From positions 1 through 21,124 of the IMG/VR virus record IMGVR_UViG_3300009684_000208: 21,124 nt of DNA; one strand, written 5' to 3'. The stretch's first letter is position 1. Each line of letters starts with the position of its first letter. The translations under genes were made by a program, and so were the position numbers. The notes beneath the pieces were generated by a model that was not told where the DNA came from, did no database searches, and saw only the letters and a list, made by a program, of their open reading frames with translations. Origin of the DNA: a virus. Shown here piece by piece: positions 379-18,589 of this stretch.

Positions 379-2960
379 TATTTAGTTTTTTTAGTACGTC
401 CTTTTGCATTTTCTCTAGCAACAGCTAAATCATTTGCTTGATTCTCTCTAGCCACTTGTAGTTTTTCTCTCTCTAATGCCATCTTATCCATAGCTTGTTT
501 ACTCTTAGATTGAATATCCATCACCTTCATATCATAATCTTTAGCAGCTTTAGCCTGGTCATTAGTTAGCTTACTCATTTCTAGTACATCTGGAACAGCA
601 TTTGCATCCATATCAGGTAGAGGACCACTTTTAGCTTCAGCAGCTATAATGGCAAGTTCTTTCTTATTAATCCTGTCTAGCTCATTTTGATAATCATCAT
701 GTGCAAGTTGTTGTTCGTGTTGAGCTTGAGCTTGCTGTAATTGAGCTTGAGCCTGTTGTTGCTGTTGTTCAAGCTGTTGTTGTTGCTGCTGTTGCTGTTG
801 CATTTGCATAGCTTCTTGCTTCTCCTTAAGTGTCTTGAACACTTTTTTCATCTGACGTACAGAATCTGTACTGTATAATTCAATAATGTCATGAAGACTT
901 CCACCATTCTGTATAACAGCTTGTGACAATCCTCTAAGCTCATTAAACATCTTCTGATCTTCAGGTCTATTAGTAAGGAACACTTTAAGATCTCTAAACT
1001 TAAGATCTGATCCGTTCACTTGAACAAATGCAGATTCTCCATTATTAGTGATGTATGACAATGTTGATTGTGGTTTCTTACTTTCTACATATAAAGCTGC
1101 ATCTATAATAGCTTGATAGAGTTGACCAAGAACATATTCATGAGCTACAAATAAAGGTTCTGTTTGAGAATAAGACTGTGTAATAGCAGTGTTTGTACCT
1201 GTAGCACTCTCACTAGCTGATACACTTCCCATTCTTTGTTTAGACATACCTATCAGTTCCCAGCACTCATTCTTTAATTGTATAGCTAGTTGATAACGAG
1301 CTTGCATTTCCTGTGTACGTGTAAGATCTAAAGATGTAAATTGATTGAATGAACTAGGAGCTTTTAAATTCTCAGGACTATCATCTATAAATACCACACC
1401 TCTATTACGAGCTTCCATTTCCCAGATATCCAAAGCATCTTGTGCATCTCCATCTTTAGGAATAGGAATATGTCTCAATGACATAAGTTGCACTTTACCC
1501 ACTTCTTTCTCAAGTAGTTTGTAAAGCTGGTTCATACATACATTATATAACACTTGGAAAGGTTTCATAAGATCCACTAAGCTTTTAGGCTCTGTATTTT
1601 TAATCTCATGTACAAGTCCAATGATAGGACAATAGTTTAAAAGTTTATATGGTTTAATGAAATAGATATCTGGACCAATCTTAATTCCTTGATACCATTG
1701 GTTAATCCATCCCCATTCTAAAGATTGTTGTGTAGGAATAGTTCCTGATTTATAGCTTTCGTCAACTAGGGTTGATTGCTCATTACCCATTTCATCTATA
1801 TATATCAACTTACCAATCTTCTTCTTAGAAATCCAATAGCTTCTTACTACAACATATTTATAACCAAATGAAGATACATTAGATGTAAGTCCTAAGAAAT
1901 CTTTAAGACCATCATCGTTCTCTTTCATCTCAGATTCTATAATCATTCTTGTCTGAAGAACCAAAGGATCAAATGTATCATATTGTATTGAATCATTTCC
2001 AGGTATAGCATCAGGGTTCCCAAGATTTGATTCTCTAACATTAATCAATCCATAATCTTGTAGTGAACTACGTAAATGATCAATCTCTTCTTTAGTCAAT
2101 TCTGGAATTGATTCTATTATCTCAGAGAGTTCCATAACTTGCACAGTACCAGCAGCATATGCACCTCTTGCTCTACCTGTAGGATCTGAAATAAATTTCC
2201 TATCTGGTGTACTCAGGAACCAAGTAGTCTTTGGATTAGCCACTTCTATATTAAATCCTAATTTAGAATTGTCTTCGTATATATGATAGAATTCTCTAGC
2301 AGATATTAACATATCCCTAAAAGCATCTTCACTCATTTCTTTTGTATTGAATTCAGCCTTCTGACATGTAAGAACATGGTTTGCCCATTTTTCAGCTACA
2401 GAAGTGTAGTCATCTAATTCATCCTTCACCTCTTCCATTGTCATTTGCTGAATCTCTTCATCTGGAATCTCCTGTCCTTGTAGGGCAGCTTTTTCCATAA
2501 TCTTTTGTCTGGCTTGATTAATAACATACTCTTGTAGAATACCTGTCTTAAACTCTAGCTCTTCTGCTTGACTGTCATCATCAAAAGCCTTCACTCTAAA
2601 TGCATCTGGTCTCTTAGAGATTTCTCCTACTAATTCATTAATAGGAGTGGTGAGAATAGAATAATGTTTAACGTGAGCAGGTAGTTGAAGATTAACTTCA
2701 AGCATCTGTGTAAAACTTTTTACTGTTGGCTCTTGATAAAAATCCTCCATACGAAGAATTCCTTTTACAAGATCATAGTTCTTTACAAACGTATCTCTGT
2801 TTTTTACATATTCAGCATAAGCTTTATTTGCAAAATAATCCATTGTATTCTTAATCCAACTTTCATCTTGTTTTTCTTTATCTGTTTTAAATTGATCAGG
2901 AAAGATGTTAAGATAGGCATACCTAATGGTAGCATCTTTTGTATATCTAATTATTGCCAT
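378..2960 (-). CDS. Phage portal protein
   Basis: This 860-residue protein is expected to form the ring at one capsid vertex through which DNA enters and leaves. The call rests on its size, its place directly after TerL with a one-base TAATG overlap, and a portal-like body: an N-terminal alpha-helical region, a long mixed middle part (about residues 200-700) and a helical C-terminus. I see no short signature motif, so context carries much of the weight. About residues 715-750 are a glutamine/alanine-rich low-complexity tract, and about 750-855 are a charged coiled-coil-like tail ending in KGRTKKTK. The crAss-like portal sits in the same place beside TerL. Start: ATG at 2960, with no better upstream candidate because the TerL stop overlaps it. 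Confidence 0.82.
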   Translation of the reverse strand: MAIIRYTKDATIRYAYLNIFPDQFKTDKEKQDESWIKNTMDYFANKAYAEYVKNRDTFVKNYDLVKGILRMEDFYQEPTVKSFTQMLEVNLQLPAHVKHYSILTTPINELVGEISKRPDAFRVKAFDDDSQAEELEFKTGILQEYVINQARQKIMEKAALQGQEIPDEEIQQMTMEEVKDELDDYTSVAEKWANHVLTCQKAEFNTKEMSEDAFRDMLISAREFYHIYEDNSKLGFNIEVANPKTTWFLSTPDRKFISDPTGRARGAYAAGTVQVMELSEIIESIPELTKEEIDHLRSSLQDYGLINVRESNLGNPDAIPGNDSIQYDTFDPLVLQTRMIIESEMKENDDGLKDFLGLTSNVSSFGYKYVVVRSYWISKKKIGKLIYIDEMGNEQSTLVDESYKSGTIPTQQSLEWGWINQWYQGIKIGPDIYFIKPYKLLNYCPIIGLVHEIKNTEPKSLVDLMKPFQVLYNVCMNQLYKLLEKEVGKVQLMSLRHIPIPKDGDAQDALDIWEMEARNRGVVFIDDSPENLKAPSSFNQFTSLDLTRTQEMQARYQLAIQLKNECWELIGMSKQRMGSVSASESATGTNTAITQSYSQTEPLFVAHEYVLGQLYQAIIDAALYVESKKPQSTLSYITNNGESAFVQVNGSDLKFRDLKVFLTNRPEDQKMFNELRGLSQAVIQNGGSLHDIIELYSTDSVRQMKKVFKTLKEKQEAMQMQQQQQQQQQLEQQQQQAQAQLQQAQAQHEQQLAHDDYQNELDRINKKELAIIAAEAKSGPLPDMDANAVPDVLEMSKLTNDQAKAAKDYDMKVMDIQSKSKQAMDKMALEREKLQVARENQANDLAVARENAKGRTKKTK
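715..805 (-). repeat. CAA/CAG triplet-rich tract encoding polyglutamine in the portal C-terminus
   Basis: On the coding strand this stretch is a run of CAA and CAG codons broken by a few GCT, GAA and TTA codons. It gives runs of up to nine glutamines followed by QAQAQ repeats. It is a coding microsatellite and could vary in length by slippage. It lies between the folded portal body and the charged C-terminal helices, so it may be a flexible linker or coiled-coil segment. Confidence 0.85.
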
Positions 2961-7573: not shown

Positions 7574-7619
7574 GGCAAGTGGGTGTAATCCCCACACTAA
7601 AACATTGCCTCTCATCATT

Positions 7620-8012
7620 ATGCCATTAGAATTTAAAAAGTATGAATCAGCAGAAGCAGGTATTTTCGAAGATCTTGGAACTATCAGATCTGTTGCAGGT
7701 AAAGGCGGAGAAATTGGTTTCATTCCAAAGAATTGGAATAACACTGCAAAGAACGTTGCAATTGTTATCTTCAAGAAGAATGGTACTTCTGCCACAGTAT
7801 CAGCAAGCAAGCCACTAAGCGTTGCACTGCGTGCTAAAGAAGTCAGCATTCGTCAGTTGATGAAGTTTCAGTTAACTGAAGCTCCTAACGGAACAATCTT
7901 TGTCAGTATGCCAGGTGGTGGTGCTCCAATTCAAAAGCACGCTGTTGACAGCATCAAAGATGAAGACTTTGAGGTGGAGGAATTGTCTCACGAGGACACT
8001 ATTGCAATGTAA
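7620..8012 (+). CDS. Unknown single-gene unit product, probably highly expressed
   Basis: 130 residues starting MPLEFKKYESAEAG. I chose ATG 7620; an in-frame TTG at 7605 would add five residues. Short alternating hydrophobic stretches (VAIVIFKKNG, TIFVSMPGG) suggest a mainly beta fold with an acidic tail (DEDFEVEELSHEDT). No known motif or signal peptide is seen. The gene is richer in G+C than its neighbours; by hand count 30 of the 60 bases from 7801 are G or C. It stands alone between a promoter-like site and a strong terminator. These features suggest abundant expression early in infection. A DNA- or RNA-binding or anti-host role is possible but not supported by motifs. Confidence 0.85.
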   Translation: MPLEFKKYESAEAGIFEDLGTIRSVAGKGGEIGFIPKNWNNTAKNVAIVIFKKNGTSATVSASKPLSVALRAKEVSIRQLMKFQLTEAPNGTIFVSMPGGGAPIQKHAVDSIKDEDFEVEELSHEDTIAM

Positions 8013-8020
8013 TGCAATCT

Positions 8021-8053
8021 AAGAAAGGGCTAATCGCCCTTTCTTTTCTTTTA
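8021..8053 (+). terminator. Strong intrinsic terminator after the 7620-8012 gene
   Basis: A perfect 10-bp stem AAGAAAGGGC/GCCCTTTCTT (8021-8030 with 8036-8045), loop TAATC, followed by TTCTTTTA. It begins nine bases after the stop codon and closes the single-gene unit. Confidence 0.9.
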
Positions 8054-8104
8054 TATACAATCTTTAAGCTGTAAACTGCAAGAGAATAGTAAACTTTATA
8101 TAGT

Positions 8105-8344
8105 ATTTGTATATAATATAATAGGTGTATCAACAGTCTTGGAATATAAACAACATTTTCAAACAGCTATATTATACAAATGTAACATACATATAGCATT
8201 AACATATTACAATTGTAATGAGACACAATAATCAGATGTACACTTATAAGATAGAGATAGGCTTATAAGAGCAAAGCAGGTACATCAGTGATAAATATTT
8301 AATGCATTAGATTGTTATTAAATATCATTCTCATTGCAATTGTA
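8105..8344 (+). ncRNA. Candidate structured RNA or leader (element 1)
   Basis: No gene is seen in 8054-8372. The stretch holds several helices. First, 8105-8120 pairs with 8168-8181 (14 pairs, one 2-base bulge). Next comes a 16-pair closing stem, 8208-8223 with 8329-8344, with one G-U pair. Inside that stem lie arm GATGTAC/GTACATC (8235-8241 with 8280-8286) carrying CTTATAAG/CTTATAAG (8243-8250 with 8262-8269), and arm ATATTTAAT/ATTAAATAT (8295-8303 with 8317-8325). The 3' end of the closing stem runs into TTTTTATTCACACACA and then ATG 8373. It may be an independent RNA, a leader controlling the next gene, or a processing site. It matches no RNA family I can name. Strand is inferred from the flanking genes. 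Confidence 0.5.
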
Positions 8345-8372
8345 TTTTTATTCACACACAAAAAACAAAATT
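8345..8372 (+). promoter_or_regulatory. C/A-rich leader motif, copy 1
   Basis: TTTTTATTCACACACA followed by an A-rich stretch lies between the closing stem of RNA element 1 and ATG 8373. The same arrangement (helix end, T-run, TTCACACACA-like, A/T-rich, ATG) recurs before 8876 and 10484. It may act as a translation-initiation or transcription signal. Confidence 0.5.
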
Positions 8373-8522
8373 ATGAAAGAGTATATAATTACATACCAAC
8401 GTACAGATGGTTCTTTTAGATTTACATTCATTGATGCTAATAACATTGATCAAGCTAAAGAATTAGTATATAATGATAAATTAGATTGTGTTCAGATATT
8501 AAGTGCTGAATGTAATTACTAA
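8373..8522 (+). CDS. Small unknown protein behind RNA element 1
   Basis: 49 residues, MKEYIITYQRTDGSFRFTF and on. I chose ATG 8373, which follows the shared C/A-rich leader. A TTG at 8334 is in frame but lies inside the closing stem of RNA element 1. Pattern: a strand pair, then a helix (NNIDQAKELVYND), then a strand. That is a compact alpha/beta fold without membrane segments. Function unknown. Confidence 0.65.
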   Translation: MKEYIITYQRTDGSFRFTFIDANNIDQAKELVYNDKLDCVQILSAECNY

Positions 8523-8530
8523 AGTTTATT

Positions 8531-8845
8531 CTCCTGGGACACAATAATCGTCAACTGTGGTCATCATGCTACACGTTTGGGTTATTGTGTCTACGAGATT
8601 TTAATGCACCAATCTATCTTCCCAAGGGATAGCAGTTATAACATAGTCGAGGTTAGTAGACTTTATATAATCAACTTAAGATAAGGTTATATAAAGAACG
8701 AAAGCCTAAAATCCACATATTGGAGTAGACGTACAAAAATGTTATAGCTGAGTGCAGAGGGATTTTATGTGGTGATACATGGATTAACCAAATATATTGG
8801 ACAATTAATTGTATTCCAGACAGCAGGAAGACTGCTCACCACATT
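8531..8845 (+). ncRNA. Candidate structured RNA (element 2)
   Basis: No gene is seen in 8523-8875. Perfect or near-perfect helices fill it. GACACAATAA/TTATTGTGTC pairs 8538-8547 with 8582-8591, with an inner TGTGG/CTACA hairpin. CTATC/GATAG pairs 8614-8618 with 8628-8632. A 12-bp stem pairs 8633-8644 with 8739-8750 (one G-U). Enclosed in it is CTTTATATAA/TTATATAAAG (8661-8670 with 8687-8696). ATGTGGTGA/TCACCACAT pairs 8767-8775 with 8836-8844, and inside it AGCAG/CTGCT (8822-8826 with 8832-8836) competes for base 8836. The last helix runs into TTTTT and the shared leader. It is more G+C-rich than nearby genes. It does not match tRNA, tmRNA, RNase P or group II intron domain V as I know them. 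Confidence 0.55.
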
Positions 8846-8875
8846 TTTCATTTACACACATTAAATAATAATTAT
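8845..8875 (+). promoter_or_regulatory. C/A-rich leader motif, copy 2
   Basis: TTTTCATTTACACACATTAA followed by an A/T-rich stretch joins the last helix of RNA element 2 to ATG 8876. It resembles the leaders at 8345 and 10443. Confidence 0.5.
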
Positions 8876-9076
8876 ATGAACAAACAATTTCTATTACAAA
8901 TGCTTGAATTATCAAACACTAACAGACCATTTAAATATGTAAGTGAGTTATTGTTACAAATAGCTGTTGATCCTGAGCTTGATGATAATGTATCTATTGA
9001 TGATTTTGATAATGAGTTCTATTCAGTTAGGAGTATTAGCTGGATTAAACAATGTTTCAATTTTAATTTAAAATAA
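8876..9076 (+). CDS. Small acidic unknown protein
   Basis: 66 residues: a helical N-terminus (MNKQFLLQMLELSNTNRP), then an acidic stretch (DPELDDNVSIDDFDNEF). No membrane segment or known motif. It is the first gene after RNA element 2 and starts at the end of the shared C/A-rich leader, which supports the start. Function unknown. Confidence 0.65.
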   Translation: MNKQFLLQMLELSNTNRPFKYVSELLLQIAVDPELDDNVSIDDFDNEFYSVRSISWIKQCFNFNLK

Positions 9077-9089
9077 TATTAATTAAACC

Positions 9090-9109
9090 TTATAAATCAA
9101 TTAGTTATG
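9090..9109 (+). promoter_or_regulatory. Repeated A/T-rich leader, copy 1
   Basis: TTATAAATCAATTAGTTATG ends at the start codon of the 9107 gene. Related sequences precede the genes at 9519 (9491-9521, ending AATTAGTTATG) and 9715 (9697-9717). It is probably a ribosome-loading sequence in place of Shine-Dalgarno, or a repeated promoter. Confidence 0.5.
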
Positions 9110-9478
9110 AATGCAGCAATAGAATTTAACAGTTTTGTTACAGGTAAACCAGATGTTATATGTGCTTATGTAAGAAAGGTAAATTATGGTGAAGATCATT
9201 ATAATGTAAGTCTTCCATTGGGATATACAGAGGAACAATATGCTAATTTTATGCTTGATCTAGATTTTACATATGATAATGGATTTGGAGGACAAGAAGT
9301 AGATGGTGAAATATGGTTTAAAGATGGTACATGGGCTGATAGGGGAGAATATGATGGTTCAGAATGGTGGAACTATCATAAATGTCCTAAAGTACCAACA
9401 TTTCTTTATCCTTTAGAAGAAGAATTACCTTTTGATCAGGCAAATTATTGGGATGGTGATGAAACATCTAAACAATAA
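9107..9478 (+). CDS. Acidic, aromatic-rich unknown protein
   Basis: 123 residues, rich in Asp, Glu, Trp and Tyr. Segments include FTYDNGFGGQEVDGEIWF and WADRGEYDGSEWWNYHKCP, then a proline-containing acidic C-terminus. It is probably a small beta-rich soluble protein; no signal peptide or transmembrane helix. The repeated A/T-rich leader supports ATG 9107. I do not recognise a function. Confidence 0.75.
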   Translation: MNAAIEFNSFVTGKPDVICAYVRKVNYGEDHYNVSLPLGYTEEQYANFMLDLDFTYDNGFGGQEVDGEIWFKDGTWADRGEYDGSEWWNYHKCPKVPTFLYPLEEELPFDQANYWDGDETSKQ

Positions 9479-9490
9479 TTTTAAACAACA

Positions 9491-9521
9491 ATTATAAATC
9501 ATTAAACTACAATTAGTTATG
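9491..9521 (+). promoter_or_regulatory. Repeated A/T-rich leader, copy 2
   Basis: ATTATAAATCATTAAAC at 9491-9507 and then AATTAGTTATG match the leaders before 9107 and 9715, with a few extra bases inserted. The leader ends at ATG 9519. Confidence 0.45.
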
Positions 9522-9671
9522 AAAAAAGATTATTCAATACAGTTAATAATAATGTTAATATTTGGAGCATTGTTATTTATAATAGCAACAAGTTCTTGTT
9601 CTGTAAATAGAGGAGGATATAAAGCTCCTAAAACATGGCATTGTGTAGTTGGTAAACATCAATTGAGATGA
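9519..9671 (+). CDS. Small phage lipoprotein
   Basis: 50 residues. The N-terminus MKKDYSIQ is followed by a hydrophobic helix (LIIMLIFGALLFIIA) and TSSC, a good type II signal-peptide lipobox with the lipidated Cys at residue 27. The mature part is only about 24 residues (CSVNRGGYKAPKTWHCVV and on). It should be anchored in a membrane facing outside the cytoplasm. It begins a run of small membrane-targeted genes (9519-10385). Superinfection exclusion is a possible role, by analogy with other phage lipoproteins only. Confidence 0.75.
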   Translation: MKKDYSIQLIIMLIFGALLFIIATSSCSVNRGGYKAPKTWHCVVGKHQLR

Positions 9672-9696
9672 TAATTTCAAATAAATATTATAAACA

Positions 9697-9717
9697 ATTA
9701 TAAATCAATCAATTATG
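9697..9717 (+). promoter_or_regulatory. Repeated A/T-rich leader, copy 3
   Basis: ATTATAAATCAATCAATT leads directly into ATG 9715. It differs at only a few positions from the copies before 9107 and 9519. Confidence 0.45.
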
Positions 9718-9942
9718 AAAGAAAGTTTAGAAAAATTCACAGCCATTATATTTGATGGTAAAATAGACATCAATGATTTCTATCATGCTAGCTTTACAGA
9801 TAGATGTATTAGATTCCAGGGTAAAGCTAATAGTGATGTAATACATAAATACAAGGATGCAGGTTGGAAATTCACATTAGATGATAGTGCTACTATTATA
9901 GAAGGTGATATGGATAATGTATCTTTAATATTCACATTTTAA
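9715..9942 (+). CDS. Small soluble unknown protein
   Basis: 75 residues without signal peptide or membrane segment. The alternating pattern (RCIRFQGKANSDV, GWKFTLDDSATIIEGD, NVSLIFTF) suggests a small beta-rich fold with one helix around DVIHKYKDAG. It lies between the lipoprotein gene and a membrane-protein gene and starts at a repeated A/T-rich leader. Function unknown. Confidence 0.65.
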   Translation: MKESLEKFTAIIFDGKIDINDFYHASFTDRCIRFQGKANSDVIHKYKDAGWKFTLDDSATIIEGDMDNVSLIFTF

Positions 9943-9954
9943 TATATTCCATAT

Positions 9955-10131
9955 ATGAGAAAGTATATTAATATAATAATGGGCATTGTTATGTTCATTG
10001 TTACAACAGCATTAATTGGATGTATTATATATTTCACTAATCCAACCATATTATCAATAGCACTAATATGTGTTATATCTGGAGTTGGGTATATAATTTC
10101 TTATTTATTTATCACTGATTATTTAAATTAA
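9955..10131 (+). CDS. Small two-helix membrane protein
   Basis: 58 residues, almost entirely hydrophobic. Helices span about residues 5-27 (INIIMGIVMFIVTTALIGCI) and 32-53 (ILSIALICVISGVGYIISYL). ATG 9955 is 12 bases after the previous stop. It belongs to the cluster of membrane-targeted small genes. Candidate roles are membrane-potential or superinfection effects; no motif supports one choice. Confidence 0.6.
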   Translation: MRKYINIIMGIVMFIVTTALIGCIIYFTNPTILSIALICVISGVGYIISYLFITDYLN

Positions 10132-10137
10132 ATCATT

Positions 10138-10257
10138 ATGAAAGATCATCAATTAGAAAAAGTTAAAAGAATAGAAGTGAGTATTAAGCTATTTGGCTTA
10201 ATTCTCGTTCTCACATCGTTCATTTATTTATTACTTTACATTAAATTTGCAAAATAA
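10138..10257 (+). CDS. Very small single-helix membrane protein
   Basis: 39 residues: a basic amphipathic start (MKDHQLEKVKRIEVSIK), then one hydrophobic helix (LFGLILVLTSFIYLLLYI) and a short basic end. Its stop overlaps the next start by one base (TAATG), which favours real translation of both. A single-pass inner-membrane protein with its charged end in the cytoplasm is likely. Function unknown. Confidence 0.55.
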   Translation: MKDHQLEKVKRIEVSIKLFGLILVLTSFIYLLLYIKFAK

Positions 10258-10385
10258 TGAAAGCATTAATTATTATTTCAATATTAGCCATATTGTTTAC
10301 ATCATGTAGACCAACTAGAGGTTGTCCTGCATATGATAAAACATTTTGGTATAGAATGGGTGGATCTCGTCCATTTTTAAGATAG
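10257..10385 (+). CDS. Very small phage lipoprotein
   Basis: 42 residues: signal peptide MKALIIISILAILFTSC with a lipobox (LFTSC, Cys at 17), then a short mature part containing RGCPAYDKTFWYRMGG and ending in LR. It ends at TAG, one of the few TAG stops here. It is coupled to the upstream membrane protein by a one-base overlap. The mature part has a second Cys. Role unknown; surface or periplasmic exposure is implied by the lipobox. Confidence 0.65.
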   Translation: MKALIIISILAILFTSCRPTRGCPAYDKTFWYRMGGSRPFLR

Positions 10386-10412
10386 TCGTTTTTTTTTATT
10401 AGCAGTTAAAAA

Positions 10413-10447
10413 GGACTCTGGGTATTTCTATACCTGGAGCCATTTTT
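10413..10447 (+). terminator. Hairpin with T-run upstream of the 10484 gene
   Basis: CTCTGGGTAT (10416-10425) pairs with ATACCTGGAG (10430-10439), ten pairs with two G-U, loop TTCT. GG/CC outside is offset by one A, and ATTTTT follows. It can end transcription of the membrane-protein cluster. It also occupies the place that RNA elements 1 and 2 hold before the shared leader, so it may be the third member of that arrangement. A run of nine T at 10389-10397 precedes it. Confidence 0.7.
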
Positions 10448-10483
10448 ATTCATTTATTCACACACATTAAAAAATTATTAATT
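10443..10483 (+). promoter_or_regulatory. C/A-rich leader motif, copy 3
   Basis: TTTTTATTCATTTATTCACA at 10443-10462 continues as CACATTAAA and an A/T-rich stretch to ATG 10484. It shares its core with the leaders before 8373 and 8876. Confidence 0.5.
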
Positions 10484-10621
10484 ATGAGTACAATCACTCT
10501 TACACCAATTGAGTTTGATCTATTCAAGGACATTGCAGACTTTTATTTTGACTTCACTGTTAAAATGGGAATTGTACATGTTATAGCTAGCACAGAAATG
10601 TTAGCTAAGCTTGGATATTAA
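10484..10621 (+). CDS. Very small unknown protein
   Basis: 45 residues (MSTITLTPIEFDLFKDIADF and on). The acidic amphipathic N-terminal half is followed by VHVIASTEMLAKLGY. There is no signal peptide. It stands alone between two hairpins, behind leader copy 3, which supports the start. Function unknown. Confidence 0.55.
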   Translation: MSTITLTPIEFDLFKDIADFYFDFTVKMGIVHVIASTEMLAKLGY

Positions 10622-10641
10622 TTCATTAAAGACTATCTTTG
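10610..10641 (+). promoter_or_regulatory. Possible Bacteroidetes-type promoter overlapping a hairpin
   Basis: CTTG (10610-10613), 20 bases, TATCTTTG (10634-10641). The -7 element is identical to that of the late operon promoter at 7037-7044; the -33 element matches three of four bases. Transcription would start near 10648 with a leader of about 28 bases before ATG 10676. Confidence 0.4.
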
Positions 10642-10662
10642 TATTTTACAGAGGTAGTCTTT
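10628..10662 (+). terminator. 15-bp hairpin between the 10484 and 10676 genes
   Basis: AAAGACTATCTTTGT (10628-10642) pairs fully with ACAGAGGTAGTCTTT (10648-10662), including two G-U pairs, with loop ATTTT. The 3' arm ends in T's, but the T-run is short, so termination may be partial. The -7 element of a possible promoter lies inside the 5' arm. Confidence 0.65.
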
Positions 10663-10675
10663 TAAATCTTAAATT

Positions 10676-11179
10676 ATGAGTGATTTTATACCAGCTAGAT
10701 TAGTACCAAAGAGCTATAAGCCTTTGAAACTAGAAAAAGGAATGTTCTTTGTTACAATAAAGAACAATGCTATTCATTTACATACACTTAATTTTGTTCC
10801 TAAGGATGTAGAATTATATACCCAATTAAATGGAATGCCTGTTGAATTATATATAGTTTATGAAGGCAATTCAAATCTTAATGAGTTTGAAATCTTAGCA
10901 ACACCAGAACAAATAGGTTGGTTTGATGATGGTGATTATTCTGATGAGATATCAGATATTACAATTAGACAAATCAACATTATATTCTCTGAGCATGAAG
11001 GATTTATAAATCTTGAATATGATATAGATGCAGATAAACCTGTATTATATGATAATAAAGTGACTATGAGATTTATAAATGACTCTGGACCTATAGATTT
11101 TGATGATTGGGAAGATTTTGATGAGGATGATCAAGATAATAATGAGAATGATTTTGAAGATAGATTAATTAACGAATAA
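10676..11179 (+). CDS. Unknown protein with strongly acidic C-terminal tail
   Basis: 167 residues. The N-terminal 130 residues look beta-rich (KGMFFVTIKNNAIHLHTLNF, VELYIVYEGN, NEFEILATPEQIGWFDDGD). The last 35 residues are mostly Asp and Glu with Trp and Phe (DDWEDFDEDDQDNNENDFED). Acidic tails of this type occur in single-strand DNA-binding proteins and in DNA-mimic anti-restriction proteins, but I see no OB-fold signature. Start ATG 10676 follows the hairpin/promoter region. Function is unknown; DNA mimicry or protein docking is inference. Confidence 0.7.
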   Translation: MSDFIPARLVPKSYKPLKLEKGMFFVTIKNNAIHLHTLNFVPKDVELYTQLNGMPVELYIVYEGNSNLNEFEILATPEQIGWFDDGDYSDEISDITIRQINIIFSEHEGFINLEYDIDADKPVLYDNKVTMRFINDSGPIDFDDWEDFDEDDQDNNENDFEDRLINE

Positions 11180-14518: not shown

Positions 14519-14617
14519 ATGAGAAAAAGTAAACCAATAGCTTTACCAATAGGTATGTTTAGTAAAGATATAGCTTTACATATTATGAGCTATTTAGTTT
14601 ACATAATAAATGATTAA
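14519..14617 (+). CDS. Possible very small protein in the gene-free region
   Basis: A 32-residue frame (MRKSKPIALPIGMFSKDIAL and on), basic at the start and hydrophobic towards the end (HIMSYLVYIIND). A perfect hairpin TCAGTAG/CTACTGA (14497-14503 with 14509-14515) ends four bases before the ATG, and promoter-like elements lie just upstream. That arrangement suits a regulated small gene, but the frame is short enough to be chance. Confidence 0.35.
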   Translation: MRKSKPIALPIGMFSKDIALHIMSYLVYIIND

Positions 14618-14620
14618 TCC

Positions 14621-14708
14621 ACCAAAAAGTGCCTTATATGACACATTATGATGTATTTATGCGACATTTAAGACACATTATCATACCAAAAAGTGCATTA
14701 TACGACAC
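14621..14708. repeat. Iteron-like direct repeats
   Basis: ACCAAAAAGTGC followed by C/A, TTATA, T/C and GACAC occurs at 14621-14644 and 14685-14708: two 24-base copies with two differences, 64 bases apart. The core TTATRYGACAY occurs three times (14634-14644, 14657-14667, 14698-14708), with a weaker TTTAAGACACA at 14667-14677. Regularly repeated short motifs beside A/T-rich DNA resemble replication-initiator or repressor binding sites. Confidence 0.7.
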
Positions 14709-14716
14709 TTTAAGCA

Positions 14717-14866
14717 ACATAAAAATTAGAAATATAAATCTAAAAACATAAAAATTAGGCGCAAAAGAATATAAATAGGAGCAAATTAGAAATATATATC
14801 TAAAAGTATACGCAATAGGGTATAAATAGACAGAATATTAAGAATTTATATGCTAAAGGGTATAAA
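14717..14866. repeat. A/T-rich repeat tract next to the iteron-like repeats
   Basis: A 23-base unit beginning AAATTAGAAATATA occurs at 14723-14745 and 14783-14805 with one difference, exactly 60 bases apart; each copy contains a TTAGA/TCTAA inverted repeat. ACATAAAAATTAG occurs at 14717-14729 and 14746-14758. GGGTATAAA occurs at 14818 and 14858. The tract has no gene and leads into ATG 14904. With the iteron-like repeats it could be a DNA-unwinding element of an origin, or a promoter array. Confidence 0.65.
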
Positions 14867-14903
14867 CCGTTCCAATTTGTCACACCTTCAAATAAATTAA
14901 ATT

Positions 14904-15137
14904 ATGGATCATCCAGTAACAATATTAAGAAATAGATTAATTAAAATAGGTATAACCATTGAAATGGTTAGTAACTATCCATGGATATACTTAGATAAGG
15001 TTAATGGTAATGTAGTGAAGGAAAAATACTTTGCTAATCATGGCTTTACAATAGGATTTAATCCTGCAAAAGTGGGAGATGTATTTAGTTACACTGATCT
15101 TAAAGAAATATTTAAAATTATTAGAAAATATAAATAA
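14904..15137 (+). CDS. Conserved-looking small phage protein
   Basis: 77 residues. An N-terminal helix (ILRNRLIKIGITIEMV) is followed by NYPWIYLDKVNG, ANHGFTIGFNP and a C-terminal helix (YTDLKEIFKIIRKYK). The pattern resembles short proteins I have seen in Bacteroidota phages, without assigned function. It is the first gene after the repeat region and heads the replication-side gene run. Confidence 0.75.
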   Translation: MDHPVTILRNRLIKIGITIEMVSNYPWIYLDKVNGNVVKEKYFANHGFTIGFNPAKVGDVFSYTDLKEIFKIIRKYK

Positions 15138-15139
15138 TT

Positions 15140-15343
15140 ATGGCGGACATAACAAAATGCTTCGGAGAAGAAGATGAAATCATCTGCCCTTATAGAGACC
15201 GTTGTTACAGATTTACAGCAAAAGCTGATGAATATCAAAGTTACTTTCAAGGGATGCCACTTAAAAATGATAAATGCGACCACTATTGGGGAGATGGTGG
15301 AGAAAATATCTGGAATCAATCAACAGAAATAGAAACATTATGA
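15140..15343 (+). CDS. Small cysteine-containing conserved-looking protein
   Basis: 67 residues with cysteines at 7, 16, 22 and 46, in TKC, ICPYRDRC and KCDHYW, plus EYQSYFQGMP. Four cysteines with these spacings could bind zinc. Start ATG 15140 is two bases after the previous stop, and its stop overlaps the next start (ATGA). Function unknown. Confidence 0.75.
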   Translation: MADITKCFGEEDEIICPYRDRCYRFTAKADEYQSYFQGMPLKNDKCDHYWGDGGENIWNQSTEIETL

Positions 15344-15531
15344 CATCAAAAGAAAAAGCAGAACAATTATGGGGTAAATATTTCCAATTAAATTATGATT
15401 GGGATGGAGGGACAAAGGACCAATGGGCAAAAGAAGGTGCATTAATAGCAGTAGATGAGATATTGTATAATTGTTATGAAGTTATGAAACCATTTTGGGA
15501 AGAAGTTAAAAAAGAAATAGAATTATTATGA
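15340..15531 (+). CDS. Small acidic helical phage protein
   Basis: 63 residues, MTSKEKAEQLWGKYFQLNY and on, with GALIAVDEIL and a C-terminal helix FWEEVKKEIELL. I chose ATG 15340 over a longer frame from 15274 because it makes an ATGA overlap with the upstream stop and its MTSKEKAEQL start is typical of this kind of phage protein. Its own stop overlaps the next start. Function unknown. Confidence 0.75.
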   Translation: MTSKEKAEQLWGKYFQLNYDWDGGTKDQWAKEGALIAVDEILYNCYEVMKPFWEEVKKEIELL

Positions 15532-15746
15532 TAGTACAAACAATACATGAAATCCTTAATCCTTTTGATGTAGAAACACCATTGGGATATGGTGTGGCAA
15601 TATTTATGATCGCAGGTTCTATTCATTCCAATCCACAATTTATCATCAGGCTGTATAATACAGGTGAAGTTAGAACAGTGGATCAAAATGATATTAAAAT
15701 TTACGGTAATCCTACAACTGGAGAACCATTAACACCTAAAAAATAA
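15528..15746 (+). CDS. Small soluble unknown protein
   Basis: 72 residues: MIVQTIHEILNPFDVETPLG, then a hydrophobic GYGVAIFMIAG, then QFIIRLYNTGEVRTVDQNDI. This looks like a small beta barrel with an SH3-like feel rather than a membrane protein. Coupled to the preceding gene by ATGA. Function unknown. Confidence 0.7.
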   Translation: MIVQTIHEILNPFDVETPLGYGVAIFMIAGSIHSNPQFIIRLYNTGEVRTVDQNDIKIYGNPTTGEPLTPKK

Positions 15747-15748
15747 TC

Positions 15749-15949
15749 ATGACTATATTTGAAGTTTCAGTAAAACTAGAATTAATAGACAAATCTGATA
15801 ATCATCACAGTTTTGCACGTACATTCACTTCTAATGAAGGTTTTTACGAGTGTTGGGAACAAATAGATATATTTAGAAACAGCAAGTTTGCTGAACAACC
15901 AACAATAACACATGTGCTTAACACCGCATCATTAGATGTAATATATTAA
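15749..15949 (+). CDS. Small soluble unknown protein
   Basis: 66 residues starting MTIFEVSVKLELIDKSDNHH. Beta strands at both ends flank a helix (EGFYECWEQIDIFRNSKF). No motif is recognised. It starts two bases after the previous stop, consistent with one operon. Confidence 0.65.
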   Translation: MTIFEVSVKLELIDKSDNHHSFARTFTSNEGFYECWEQIDIFRNSKFAEQPTITHVLNTASLDVIY

Positions 15950-15955
15950 AAAATT

Positions 15956-16177
15956 ATGAAAACACCAATGGAATTAGCTCTATCTAGAATAGAATTAATG
16001 AAAGATATTAAACCAGATAGTATACATTGGCAAATGTTTAAGGACAATTACATATACATGGAAAAGCTAATGATGGTGGATAAACAAATAGAACTGTATA
16101 ATCAATTAAACACATTAGGCTTGTTATTACCAAATTCAATTGGTTTTGAACTAGCAGAATTAAAAAACAAATTATGA
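15956..16177 (+). CDS. Small helical unknown protein
   Basis: 73 residues, almost wholly helical with heptad-like spacing (ELALSRIELMKDI, YMEKLMMVDKQIELYNQLN), so a short coiled coil is likely. Its stop overlaps the next start by ATGA. Function unknown. Confidence 0.65.
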   Translation: MKTPMELALSRIELMKDIKPDSIHWQMFKDNYIYMEKLMMVDKQIELYNQLNTLGLLLPNSIGFELAELKNKL

Positions 16178-16368
16178 GAAATGAAGAATTATACGAATAT
16201 GTATTCCATTTTAATCCATATAATGAATTATGGAGTGCAATACCTAGAGACATCTACCAACAATATTTTAACAATAATGAGATGGATGGGGTATTAAAAT
16301 CAAAAGAATTAACAACATTGTTTTCTTTAATAGGAAAAGGTGCTACCTTTGTAAACTCAATTAGATAA
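16174..16368 (+). CDS. Small unknown protein
   Basis: 64 residues (MRNEELYEYVFHFNPYNELW and on), aromatic-rich in the first half and with no membrane helix. The ATG lies in the ATGA overlap with the upstream gene. Function unknown. Confidence 0.6.
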   Translation: MRNEELYEYVFHFNPYNELWSAIPRDIYQQYFNNNEMDGVLKSKELTTLFSLIGKGATFVNSIR

Positions 16369-16375
16369 TACAGTT

Positions 16376-16633
16376 ATGGAAAATCGAGTTGGTTTAAGAA
16401 GCAATACATCAAACTATCAGAAATTATTGAGAGTTATAGCATTTGGAAAACATAACTTAGATATATCCAATAGTAAAACCCTTAAATATTTATATATAGG
16501 TAAAACTTATTATTTATTACGTTCAGGAGAAATAATGATTAAACGTGAATGGCATGAAAAAGGAAATCCAGAATATATAGTGTGTGGATTACATGAAGAA
16601 TGTGTTGCTACTAAAAAAAGACTTAAAAAATAA
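16376..16633 (+). CDS. Small basic unknown protein before PolB
   Basis: 85 residues, basic, with KYLYIGKTYYLLRSGEIM and a C-terminal HEECVATKKRLKK. It ends three bases before the PolB start, so it is probably co-expressed with the polymerase. No motif is recognised; nucleic-acid binding is possible from charge alone. Confidence 0.65.
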   Translation: MENRVGLRSNTSNYQKLLRVIAFGKHNLDISNSKTLKYLYIGKTYYLLRSGEIMIKREWHEKGNPEYIVCGLHEECVATKKRLKK

Positions 16634-16636
16634 TAT

Positions 16637-18589
16637 ATGAAAGTTTATATCTATGACATAGAAACTATGCAGGAGTTATTCCTAATAGGCTTATTTGATC
16701 CAGAGACAAAAGAATATCAAGAGTTTGAAATAAGTAGATGGAATAATTCACTTGACAGGTTCATTAAGTTCATAGAGAATAAAGATGAATATTATTGGGT
16801 GGGCTATAACAATCTACGTTTTGACAGTCAGGTGATTGAATATGTTATTAAGAATTATGATGATTGGCATCATCTATCTGGTCTTGAAATATGTGCTAAA
16901 ATTGCACAGAAAGCAGCAGATGTGATTCATGATGCTAATTATGATGTATTTCCTGAATACAGGGAACATGAACTCTCATTGAAACAATTAGATTTATTTA
17001 AAATAAACCATTTCGATAATAAGAATCGTATGGTGAGCTTAAAAAGATTGGAGTTTGAGATGGATCTTGAGAACATTGAAGAGATGCCCATTCATCATCA
17101 AAAAATTGATATGTCGAAAAAAGACATAATTCTCACCATGAACTATTGTAGAAATGATGTAATGGCTACTTATGAGTTCTATAAGATAACTACAGGTGAT
17201 ACAGAGCATCCTTTGTATAAAGGAAATAATCAGATACAGCTCAGAATGGATATAAAGGAAGAATTTGGTATTAACTGTCTTAATTATTCTGACAGTAAAA
17301 TTGGTGATGAGATGATTAAGAAGTATTATTGCCAAGAGAAGGGTATAGAATATGCACAGCTACCAAAGAAAGGTTATTTTAGAACAGAAATCAATGTAAA
17401 GAATTGTATTGCCAGTTATGTAGAATTTAAAACACCACAGCTAAAAGAGTTCCTCAAGAAGATTAAAGCCATTAAACTAAAGCTGTTAGATGATTTTAAA
17501 GAGAGTGTAGTGTTTTATGATAACACCTATTCATTCATGAAGGGTGGTTTGCATACAGAGAATAGTCCAAAGATATTTGAAGCTGATGATGAATATGAAA
17601 TCATTGATTGGGATGTATCTTCTTATTATCCTGCGATCATCATTAACAATGAGAAATATCCACAACATCTAGGTAAAGATTTTCTTAGAGGATATAAGCA
17701 AATGTTTGATAAGAGACTAGAACTAAAGCCTTTAGCTAAGACAGATAAGAAGATTAAAGGGATTGTTGGTGCTCTTAAGCTCGCTGTTAACTCTGTTTAT
17801 GGTAAAAGTTCTGACATGCAGAATTGGATATATGATAGACAACTAACTATGTTTACCACCATAACTGGTGAACTATCACTAATGATGTTAATTGAAGCAT
17901 ATGAACTTAGAGGTATACATGTTATATCTGCTAATACAGATGGTGTAACACTGAGAGTTAAGAAATGTGATCTTGAACTAATGAAAGCTATTAACAATTG
18001 GTGGATGGACCTCACTAGTTATGAGTTAGAACGCACTGATTATAAGAAGATTATATTTTCAACAGTTAATGATTACCTAGCAATTAAAACAGATGGAGAA
18101 GTTAAAAAGAAAGGAGATTTCCTCACAGATTTCGAATTACATAAGAACAAAAGTGCTAGAATTGTACCATTGGCACTTGAACAATATTATATTCACGATA
18201 TACCTGTTGACATTACTATTAGCAGTCATAATAATATCTTTGACTTCTGCCTAAGACAAAAAGCAAGTAGGGATTTTCATTATGAAGGGCACACTAAGAA
18301 TGGTAAAACAGTGTATAATAAGCTTATTCGTTATTATGTCTCTAATACAGGAGAGAAACTAATGAAGGTAAAGAATGATAGCTGTACAACAAATGCTGCT
18401 CCTATTAGTCAAGTTGAAGCTGGTGAATGGGTAATGACCGTATGTAATCATCTTACAAAGGATCATCCTCTATCTAATATCAATTATGAGTATTATATAG
18501 AGAAAGCAAATAGAATCATACATAAGATACAGCTAGAAGGTAAGAAAAGAAAAGTCAATATTGACAAAAACCAATTAACATTATTCTAA
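16637..18589 (+). CDS. DNA polymerase family B with 3'-5' exonuclease
   Basis: 650 residues; the replicative polymerase of this phage. The exonuclease has Exo I YDIET (6-10; D7, E9), Exo II YNNLRFD (57-63) and Exo III YCRND (170-174, Y170 and D174). The polymerase has motif A DVSSYYP (326-332), motif B KLAVNSVYG (381-389) and motif C ANTDG (432-436). Motif C differs from the usual YxDTDS: the first Asp is Asn433, while the main metal-binding Asp435 is kept, so activity is expected. It is shorter than many family B enzymes. Crassvirales carry either PolA or PolB, so this is compatible with such a phage. Start ATG 16637; the stop overlaps the next start by one base. Confidence 0.93.
   Translation: MKVYIYDIETMQELFLIGLFDPETKEYQEFEISRWNNSLDRFIKFIENKDEYYWVGYNNLRFDSQVIEYVIKNYDDWHHLSGLEICAKIAQKAADVIHDANYDVFPEYREHELSLKQLDLFKINHFDNKNRMVSLKRLEFEMDLENIEEMPIHHQKIDMSKKDIILTMNYCRNDVMATYEFYKITTGDTEHPLYKGNNQIQLRMDIKEEFGINCLNYSDSKIGDEMIKKYYCQEKGIEYAQLPKKGYFRTEINVKNCIASYVEFKTPQLKEFLKKIKAIKLKLLDDFKESVVFYDNTYSFMKGGLHTENSPKIFEADDEYEIIDWDVSSYYPAIIINNEKYPQHLGKDFLRGYKQMFDKRLELKPLAKTDKKIKGIVGALKLAVNSVYGKSSDMQNWIYDRQLTMFTTITGELSLMMLIEAYELRGIHVISANTDGVTLRVKKCDLELMKAINNWWMDLTSYELERTDYKKIIFSTVNDYLAIKTDGEVKKKGDFLTDFELHKNKSARIVPLALEQYYIHDIPVDITISSHNNIFDFCLRQKASRDFHYEGHTKNGKTVYNKLIRYYVSNTGEKLMKVKNDSCTTNAAPISQVEAGEWVMTVCNHLTKDHPLSNINYEYYIEKANRIIHKIQLEGKKRKVNIDKNQLTLF

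Follow-up and report, generated by a model that had tools for sequence, protein, structure and literature searches.

Twister ribozymes are self-cleaving RNAs whose biological role is described as still largely speculative in the available text of PMC5408937. According to the same text, stems P1, P2, and P4 are essential and P0, P3, and P5 are optional, and two contacts, T1 (L1 with L4) and T2 (a GC in L2 with L4), are distinguished, T2 being the most critical. The active center consists of T1 and the U-A step in J1-2, and P2 has four pairs, with a warning of disruption when it has five. Searches for the missing twister permutations gave no promising candidates according to the accessible portion of PMC10085705, in which the clustering of ribozymes was also noted. 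Precedent for ribozymes in phage genomes comes from the HDV-like theta ribozymes of gut phages, which, as far as the accessible portion of PMC10879173 describes them, also self-cleave but have the HDV fold and a tie to tRNAs. Here we describe an RNA that, from comparison of its sequences, is probably a variant twister self-cleaving ribozyme in an early transcript of a crAss-like phage. The RNA is not listed in Rfam and is present in more than 100 virus fragments, with many crAss-like phages among them; it is not one of the missing permutations as set out in the accessible portion of PMC10085705. Literature titles on structured RNAs or ribozymes of crAss-like phages and on phage twisters, mostly without subscription papers and supplements, included none describing this form.

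The window, which is the whole stretch of DNA analyzed, is a full virus record of 21,124 bases. Its minus strand carries the portal (phrog_6547) and large terminase (phrog_6681) genes, and its plus strand carries small genes, a DNA polymerase, and a helicase. Among named phages, the terminase is nearest to that of Leptolyngbya phage Lbo-JY46 (40.6%), with 30.6% for Cellulophaga phi17:2 and 24 to 30% for gut crAss-like phages. Since these two nearest relatives are not placed under Crassvirales in their own taxonomy lines, whereas ProJPt-Bp1 and phi14:2, which are more distant, do have that placement, "crAss-like" is a reading of the whole set. The cumulative GC skew of the window has its minimum near 8000, and this turn at about 8 kb is also where gene direction switches. 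The RNA is about 3.6 kb from the terminase and on the opposite strand, which we infer to be the early strand.

Several other elements were observed around the switch. Several related phages have matches to an A+T-rich intergenic stretch at 8139 to 8204, possibly an origin or early promoter region (L004, 80% over 174 nt; L009, L011, and L051, 76 to 78% over 63 to 67 nt; L071, 93% over 28 nt). By eye, a second small hairpin occupies 8222 to 8285 (GATGTAC...GTACATC with CTTATAAG repeats); it starts with GACACAATAATC, which is also the start of the 5' hairpin at 8538 (repeat family D8). ORF 7605-8012, which is followed on its 3' side by a terminator-like hairpin (8021 to 8045), is a member of a nine-strong neighbor group that lies upstream of the RNA in relatives.

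The initial annotation had proposed a structured RNA at 8531 to 8845, and such an RNA is real. The MFE of the plus strand was -91.7 kcal/mol, compared to -65.4 ± 5.3 kcal/mol for 100 shuffled sequences (z = -4.94, none of the 100 as good), whereas the minus strand gave a z of -1.63, with 8 of 100 shuffles as good. The long stems that had been described are present in the MFE fold as a 13-bp 5' hairpin, a 12-bp stem (8633-8644/8739-8750) that encloses a further hairpin of 12 bp, and a 3' hairpin. The segment had also been called less A/T-rich than nearby genes, which is mostly true: its GC fraction of 0.368 exceeds that just upstream (0.257) and those of the next two genes (0.259 and 0.323), and only ORF 7605-8012 is higher (0.412). 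No missed gene was found, as the longest ORF is 36 aa and nothing longer covers the gap. The conserved unit, at approximately 8597 to 8766, is narrower than 8531 to 8845, and the outer hairpins are not general; a full-length sequence match to the 5' hairpin was obtained only in L082. From the modeled fold, the 3' hairpin may be a terminator-like structure or a leader structure of the next gene, and it was not called by a terminator pattern scan. The parts of the window copy are listed in Table 1.

Table 1. Features of the RNA and its downstream gene in the window
Feature	Position	Strand	Basis or remark
5' hairpin, 13 bp	8537..8592	+	MFE fold; just upstream of the putative ribozyme core
P1 5' strand	8597..8601	+	3 of 5 pairs, two U-U mismatches in window copy
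L1 5' strand UAA	8602..8604	+	Predicted cleavage U8602/A8603
P2 5' strand UGCAC	8605..8609	+	Pairs with 8752-8756
P4 hairpin CUAUC-UUCCCAAGG-GAUAG, loop L4	8614..8632	+	Five covarying pairs
L4 CCC, pseudoknot T1 with 8759-8761	8621..8623	+	Covariation
P5 base stem 8633-8644/8739-8750 (12 bp here) and large variable branched domain	8633..8750	+	Covariation, MFE fold
P2 3' strand GUGCA	8752..8756	+	Covariation
L1 3' strand GAGGG, GGG in T1	8757..8761	+	Covariation
P1 3' strand	8762..8766	+	P1 covariation in family
3' hairpin ATGTGGTG / CACCACAT, then T run	8767..8844	+	MFE fold
Next gene downstream, 66-aa ORF	8876..9076	+	PHROG match: none

Relatives were collected in two ways. Viral contigs with the terminase were scanned, giving 80 loci in which two short RNA blocks (8599 to 8641 and 8742 to 8768) recur, with a shared three-way junction and a variable middle. 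The 5' half was also written as a degenerate DNA pattern, which gave at least 120 viral stretches. The 3' half of the 8597-to-8766 core was present in 113 of the 120 listed viral pattern loci, 100 of them distinct, when required within 450 nt with 2 mismatches; L092, L111, L130, L157, L186, L191, and L202 were dropped. Some members (L201, L095, L159, and L103) are as short as 70 to 75 nt with flanks. In a bacterial genome collection, the same pattern had 20 matches, and by eye only L218, where the 3' half of the motif runs off the contig, continues into P4/P5. DNA similarity searches with 8523 to 8875 against 50,697 phage records found no match, and with a 44-nt query from the core, the seven records matched were all partial and at chance level (best E, 3).

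A covariance model, R1, was built from these motif RNAs only, with no recognized twister in training. It recovered 95 of the 97 supplied pattern loci, some of which had been used to build it, and found two or more copies on one strand in 10 of the 97. At E values up to 0.1 it matched the window and 22 of 79 terminase-sampled loci, several of these matches being duplicates, weak, or truncated, indicating that the RNA is not universal. It matched 3 of 12 long records chosen solely for their terminase and none of six named phages (Leptolyngbya phage Lbo-JY46, Cellulophaga phi17:2, phi4:1, and phi14:2, csAssE-Sib, and ProJPt-Bp1).

Covariation across relatives was strong. In an alignment of 44 distinct sequences hand-picked from 65 representatives (A1), 92.6% of the cells of 27 pairs in five helices were paired, compared to 71.7% after shuffling (0 of 500 shuffles as good), and 265 cells had changes on both sides versus 88.7 for shuffled alignments; slid versions came nowhere near. 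P2 (5 bp) was paired in 99.5% of cells, with C-G-to-U-A changes on both sides in two pairs, and P4 (5 bp) was paired in 99.1%, with both-side changes in all five pairs. The first nine pairs of P5 reached 97.0%. P1 was paired in 67.3%, with a covariation score of 0.469 against at most 0.205 when slid and 0.238 when shuffled. The pseudoknot T1, which joins CCC in the P4 loop to the GGG that follows P2', was paired in all 132 cells of A1 and in 339 of 339 over 113 distinct sequences. All three of its pairs changed on both sides in A1 (0 of 500 shuffles), the compensated variants being CAC/GUG (L095 and L132), UCC/GGA (L091 and L181), and CCU/AGG (L072). Over all 65 representatives, the paired fractions were 65.2% for P1, 99.4% for P2, 96.0% for P4, 100% for T1, and 92.3% for P5. 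The 21 representatives outside A1 include the disturbed or shifted L059, L116, L136, and L165, of which L059 has 13 and L116 has 12 broken pairs outside P1 by an ungapped count. Most letters of UUAAUG-A-CA and UUYCCAAGG are fixed or favored by the search patterns, so their invariance does not count as evidence on its own, but changes in pairs do. UAA, which is partly fixed by the pattern, was invariant in 44 of 44 A1 sequences, with GAGGG or compensated forms opposite.

The variable part is the P5 insert, which differs widely in content and size and has a highly variable interior. The same P5 occurs in different flanks in L105 and L128 and again in L148 and L161, a sequence pattern that suggests modular exchange. 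A near-identical P5 tip, AAGGATYAAATGACTACCTACCTT, was seen in L148 and L161 with different flanks, and a similar tip was seen in L099 and L062; it looks like an exchanged module.

The conserved unit has the order P1-UAA-P2-P4(loop UUCCCAAGG)-P5-P2'-GAGGG-P1', which is that of a type-P1 twister. The Rfam twister-P1 consensus, ccuu-UAA-cgCc-GC-[P3]-cCG-GUCCCAAGCC-CGg-gUAAA-gGcg-GAGGG-aagg, agrees with this layout at P1, UAA, P2, P4/L4, and GAGGG. Like RF03160, the motif has the type-P1 stem order, L4 UCCCAAG, and T1 CCC/GGG, which covaries, and R1 cross-matches real members of that family. P1, P2, and P4 are nested as the essential stems, with P1 weak in the window copy; the L1 elements, a U-A scissile step in UAA with GAGGG opposite, are present, as is the T1 pseudoknot. 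In contrast to RF03160, the motif lacks P3, has P5, and escapes the Rfam model. Its P2 has 5 bp rather than four, and the fifth pair covaries (C-G in 94, U-A in 18, and U-G in 1 of 113). L4 differs in having UU before CCC (an extra U) and GG rather than GC after AA, and C-A stands after P2 in place of the L2 GC. Canonical T2 is therefore absent; at most one C-G pair could remain of it, at positions that hardly vary. Twister-P5 (RF02684) shares stem P5 in the available text of PMC5408937, but its termini lie in P5 and those of the motif lie at P1, and RF02684 is set apart by its description.

The Rfam models themselves were silent. At gathering level there were no matches in the whole window, and at E values up to 10 there were only weak unrelated ones (four in 8000 to 10800 and two in 8570 to 8800). 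The gathering score of neither RF03160 nor RF02684 was reached; the twister models at E values up to 10 matched neither the window nor the 73-nt member L159, RF03160 had no match in G000, and RF02684 found nothing in 5 genomes or 14 controls. The Rfam-detected twisters of crAss-like phages likewise score below the 67.2-bit cutoff of RF03160. The statement of the initial annotation that the RNA fits no family consequently stands for Rfam assignment, and the known-family match that it had named as a refutation was not found there, but the anatomy of the core and the cross-match of covariance models point to twister.

This cross-match was obtained with R1, which matched the twister-P1 near the motif on the same strand in L145 (17.9 bits); the alignment covers only P1, UAA, P2, and the GAGGG strand and skips the interior. 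Across twister-pattern and comparison loci totaling 208 kb, R1 had 21 matches at E values up to 1, nine of them below 0.01. By coordinates, 19 of the 21 are listed twister sites, a count in which the L266 site is doubled through its L284 copy and the two L225/L227 sites are each doubled. The other two (L279 2444-2513 and L284 1501-1562) look like twisters by eye (UAAUGCAGC ... UGCAGAGGG). The L279 match (28.1 bits) was the sole one of three displayed alignments that also aligned L4 (UCCCAAG). Of 22 twister-pattern sites searched (L259 to L280), 14 were matched and 8 were missed (L261, L262, L271, L272, L273, L276, L277, and L279); at four of the latter (L261, L262, L271, and L273) no 3' half was displayed. 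For comparison only, twister-P1 was found in 2 of 196 genomes belonging to a single bacterial class, around a Lachnospiraceae genome. Given the partial cross-match and the mixture of twister features present and altered, we file the motif as a variant that would work as a twister, not as a strict member.

An RNA descended from a twister could also have kept the fold and lost cutting, serving for example as a regulatory leader or as a noncoding RNA with a binding P5. The altered T2 and 4-bp P2, the weak P1 of the window copy, and the large, diverse P5 inserts would fit such an RNA, but the best-conserved parts are UAA/GAGGG and L4 UCCCAAG (some letters being pattern favored), the strands that make up the active site in twister, and the neighboring genes are not constant, contrary to one regulatory target. 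We consider this loss of function unlikely. The initial annotation had instead suggested an undescribed large ornate phage RNA akin to GOLLD or ROOL. The window does have a large branched P5 domain, and the motif-bearing contig L218 also has a GOLLD-like RNA below the cutoff. However, the conserved unit is small, as the 70- to 75-nt members illustrate, its anatomy and model match are those of a twister, and the GOLLD and ROOL covariance models did not match the window RNA, leaving this kinship extremely improbable. The L218 RNA (521 to 918, minus strand; 115 bits versus a cutoff of 150 bits) is on a contig binned as Alphaproteobacteria, together with the motif 5' half.

The genomic setting of the motif is constant in orientation. 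The phrog_6681 terminase is encoded in 30 of 35 bearing records, the five without it being fragments of 6 to 41 kb. In another set of 35 records, R1 matched 20, and the terminase could be placed in all 20, for 17 from the bearing-record test and for G021, G023, and G293 via a terminase scan. Motif and terminase were on opposite strands in all 20, and the motif was upstream in 19, at approximately 3 to 31 kb; in G293 the two are at opposite contig ends. In four of four crAss-like records (G016, G303, G297, and G314), twister-P1 matches below the Rfam cutoff likewise lay upstream of the terminase and on the other strand. G016, the 1 of 30 records matched by RF03160, also bears the motif, about 110 nt past its twister-P1.

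A location near the strand switch raises the alternative that the element belongs to a replication origin or packaging signal and works as DNA or through the structure of a transcript, and the divergence of genes and the lowest cumulative GC skew near 8000 are in line with it. We regard it as very unlikely, as the RNA keeps its orientation at separations from the terminase that range from about 3 to 31 kb, the pseudoknot and G-U pairs are of RNA type, and the unusual fold is on the plus strand only.

Other self-cleaving RNAs of unrelated fold occur in the same kind of phage locus. Hatchet ribozymes were found in 3 of 50 bearing records, and in L104 and L088 they are near the motif, upstream on its strand. 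In a related phage, a RAGATH-1 hammerhead (L276, of record G314) has canonical twisters close by. Different ribozyme folds at one kind of site suggest that cutting is selected. G314 also has three tandem twister-P1 matches (14591 to 16750), and its terminase reads with six in-frame TAG codons, which suggests recoding.

Two other associations were rejected: only 18 of 115 loci had a tRNA within 2.5 kb, and a riboswitch for a fixed gene is contradicted by the scatter of neighbor proteins over many small groups (the largest with 9 of 329). Since neighboring genes are not constant, control of a single target is unlikely. The nearest ORF upstream was on the strand of the motif in 87 of 115 loci and the nearest downstream in 91, as expected for a motif inside a transcript; a mechanical ORF of at least 50 aa overlapped the motif in 51 of 115. 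RNA upstream of the motif had a mean z of -1.91 (40 of 99 below -2), compared to -0.74 for random segments (37 of 200), and RNA downstream showed no such excess (20 of 99 below -2).

Against the twister reading we count the silent Rfam models, the partial cross-match, the absence of canonical T2, the 5-bp P2, the extra L4 U, the 3 of 5 pairs in P1, the disturbed members, the single twister-P1 in 30 records, and the ORF overlap. As a variant twister, the RNA would act as follows. T1 would bring L4 onto L1, and self-cleavage is predicted between U8602 and A8603. The cut would leave the early transcript in two pieces. The upstream RNA would end in a 2',3'-cyclic phosphate beside the hairpin at 8537 to 8592, which would cap this new 3' end, and the downstream RNA would have a 5'-OH and begin with the folded ribozyme, followed by the gene at 8876. 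With two U-U mismatches in P1, the window copy may cut slowly. The role is likely to be processing of mRNA or noncoding RNA and protection of new ends, not control of one gene. A rather doubtful extension is that the motif represents a twister subclass of its own, with a fifth P2 pair and a coaxial P5 standing in for T2 and P3, the exchangeable P5 being a sensor or docking module that tunes early-transcript cleavage; tandem ribozymes could then release short RNAs with ends fit for circularization.

A group of considerable size escapes the twister models of Rfam. A widespread natural twister form without canonical T2 would provide a test of which contacts are needed for catalysis, and its constant orientation in crAss-like phages would offer a defined system for asking what use ribozymes are to a phage.
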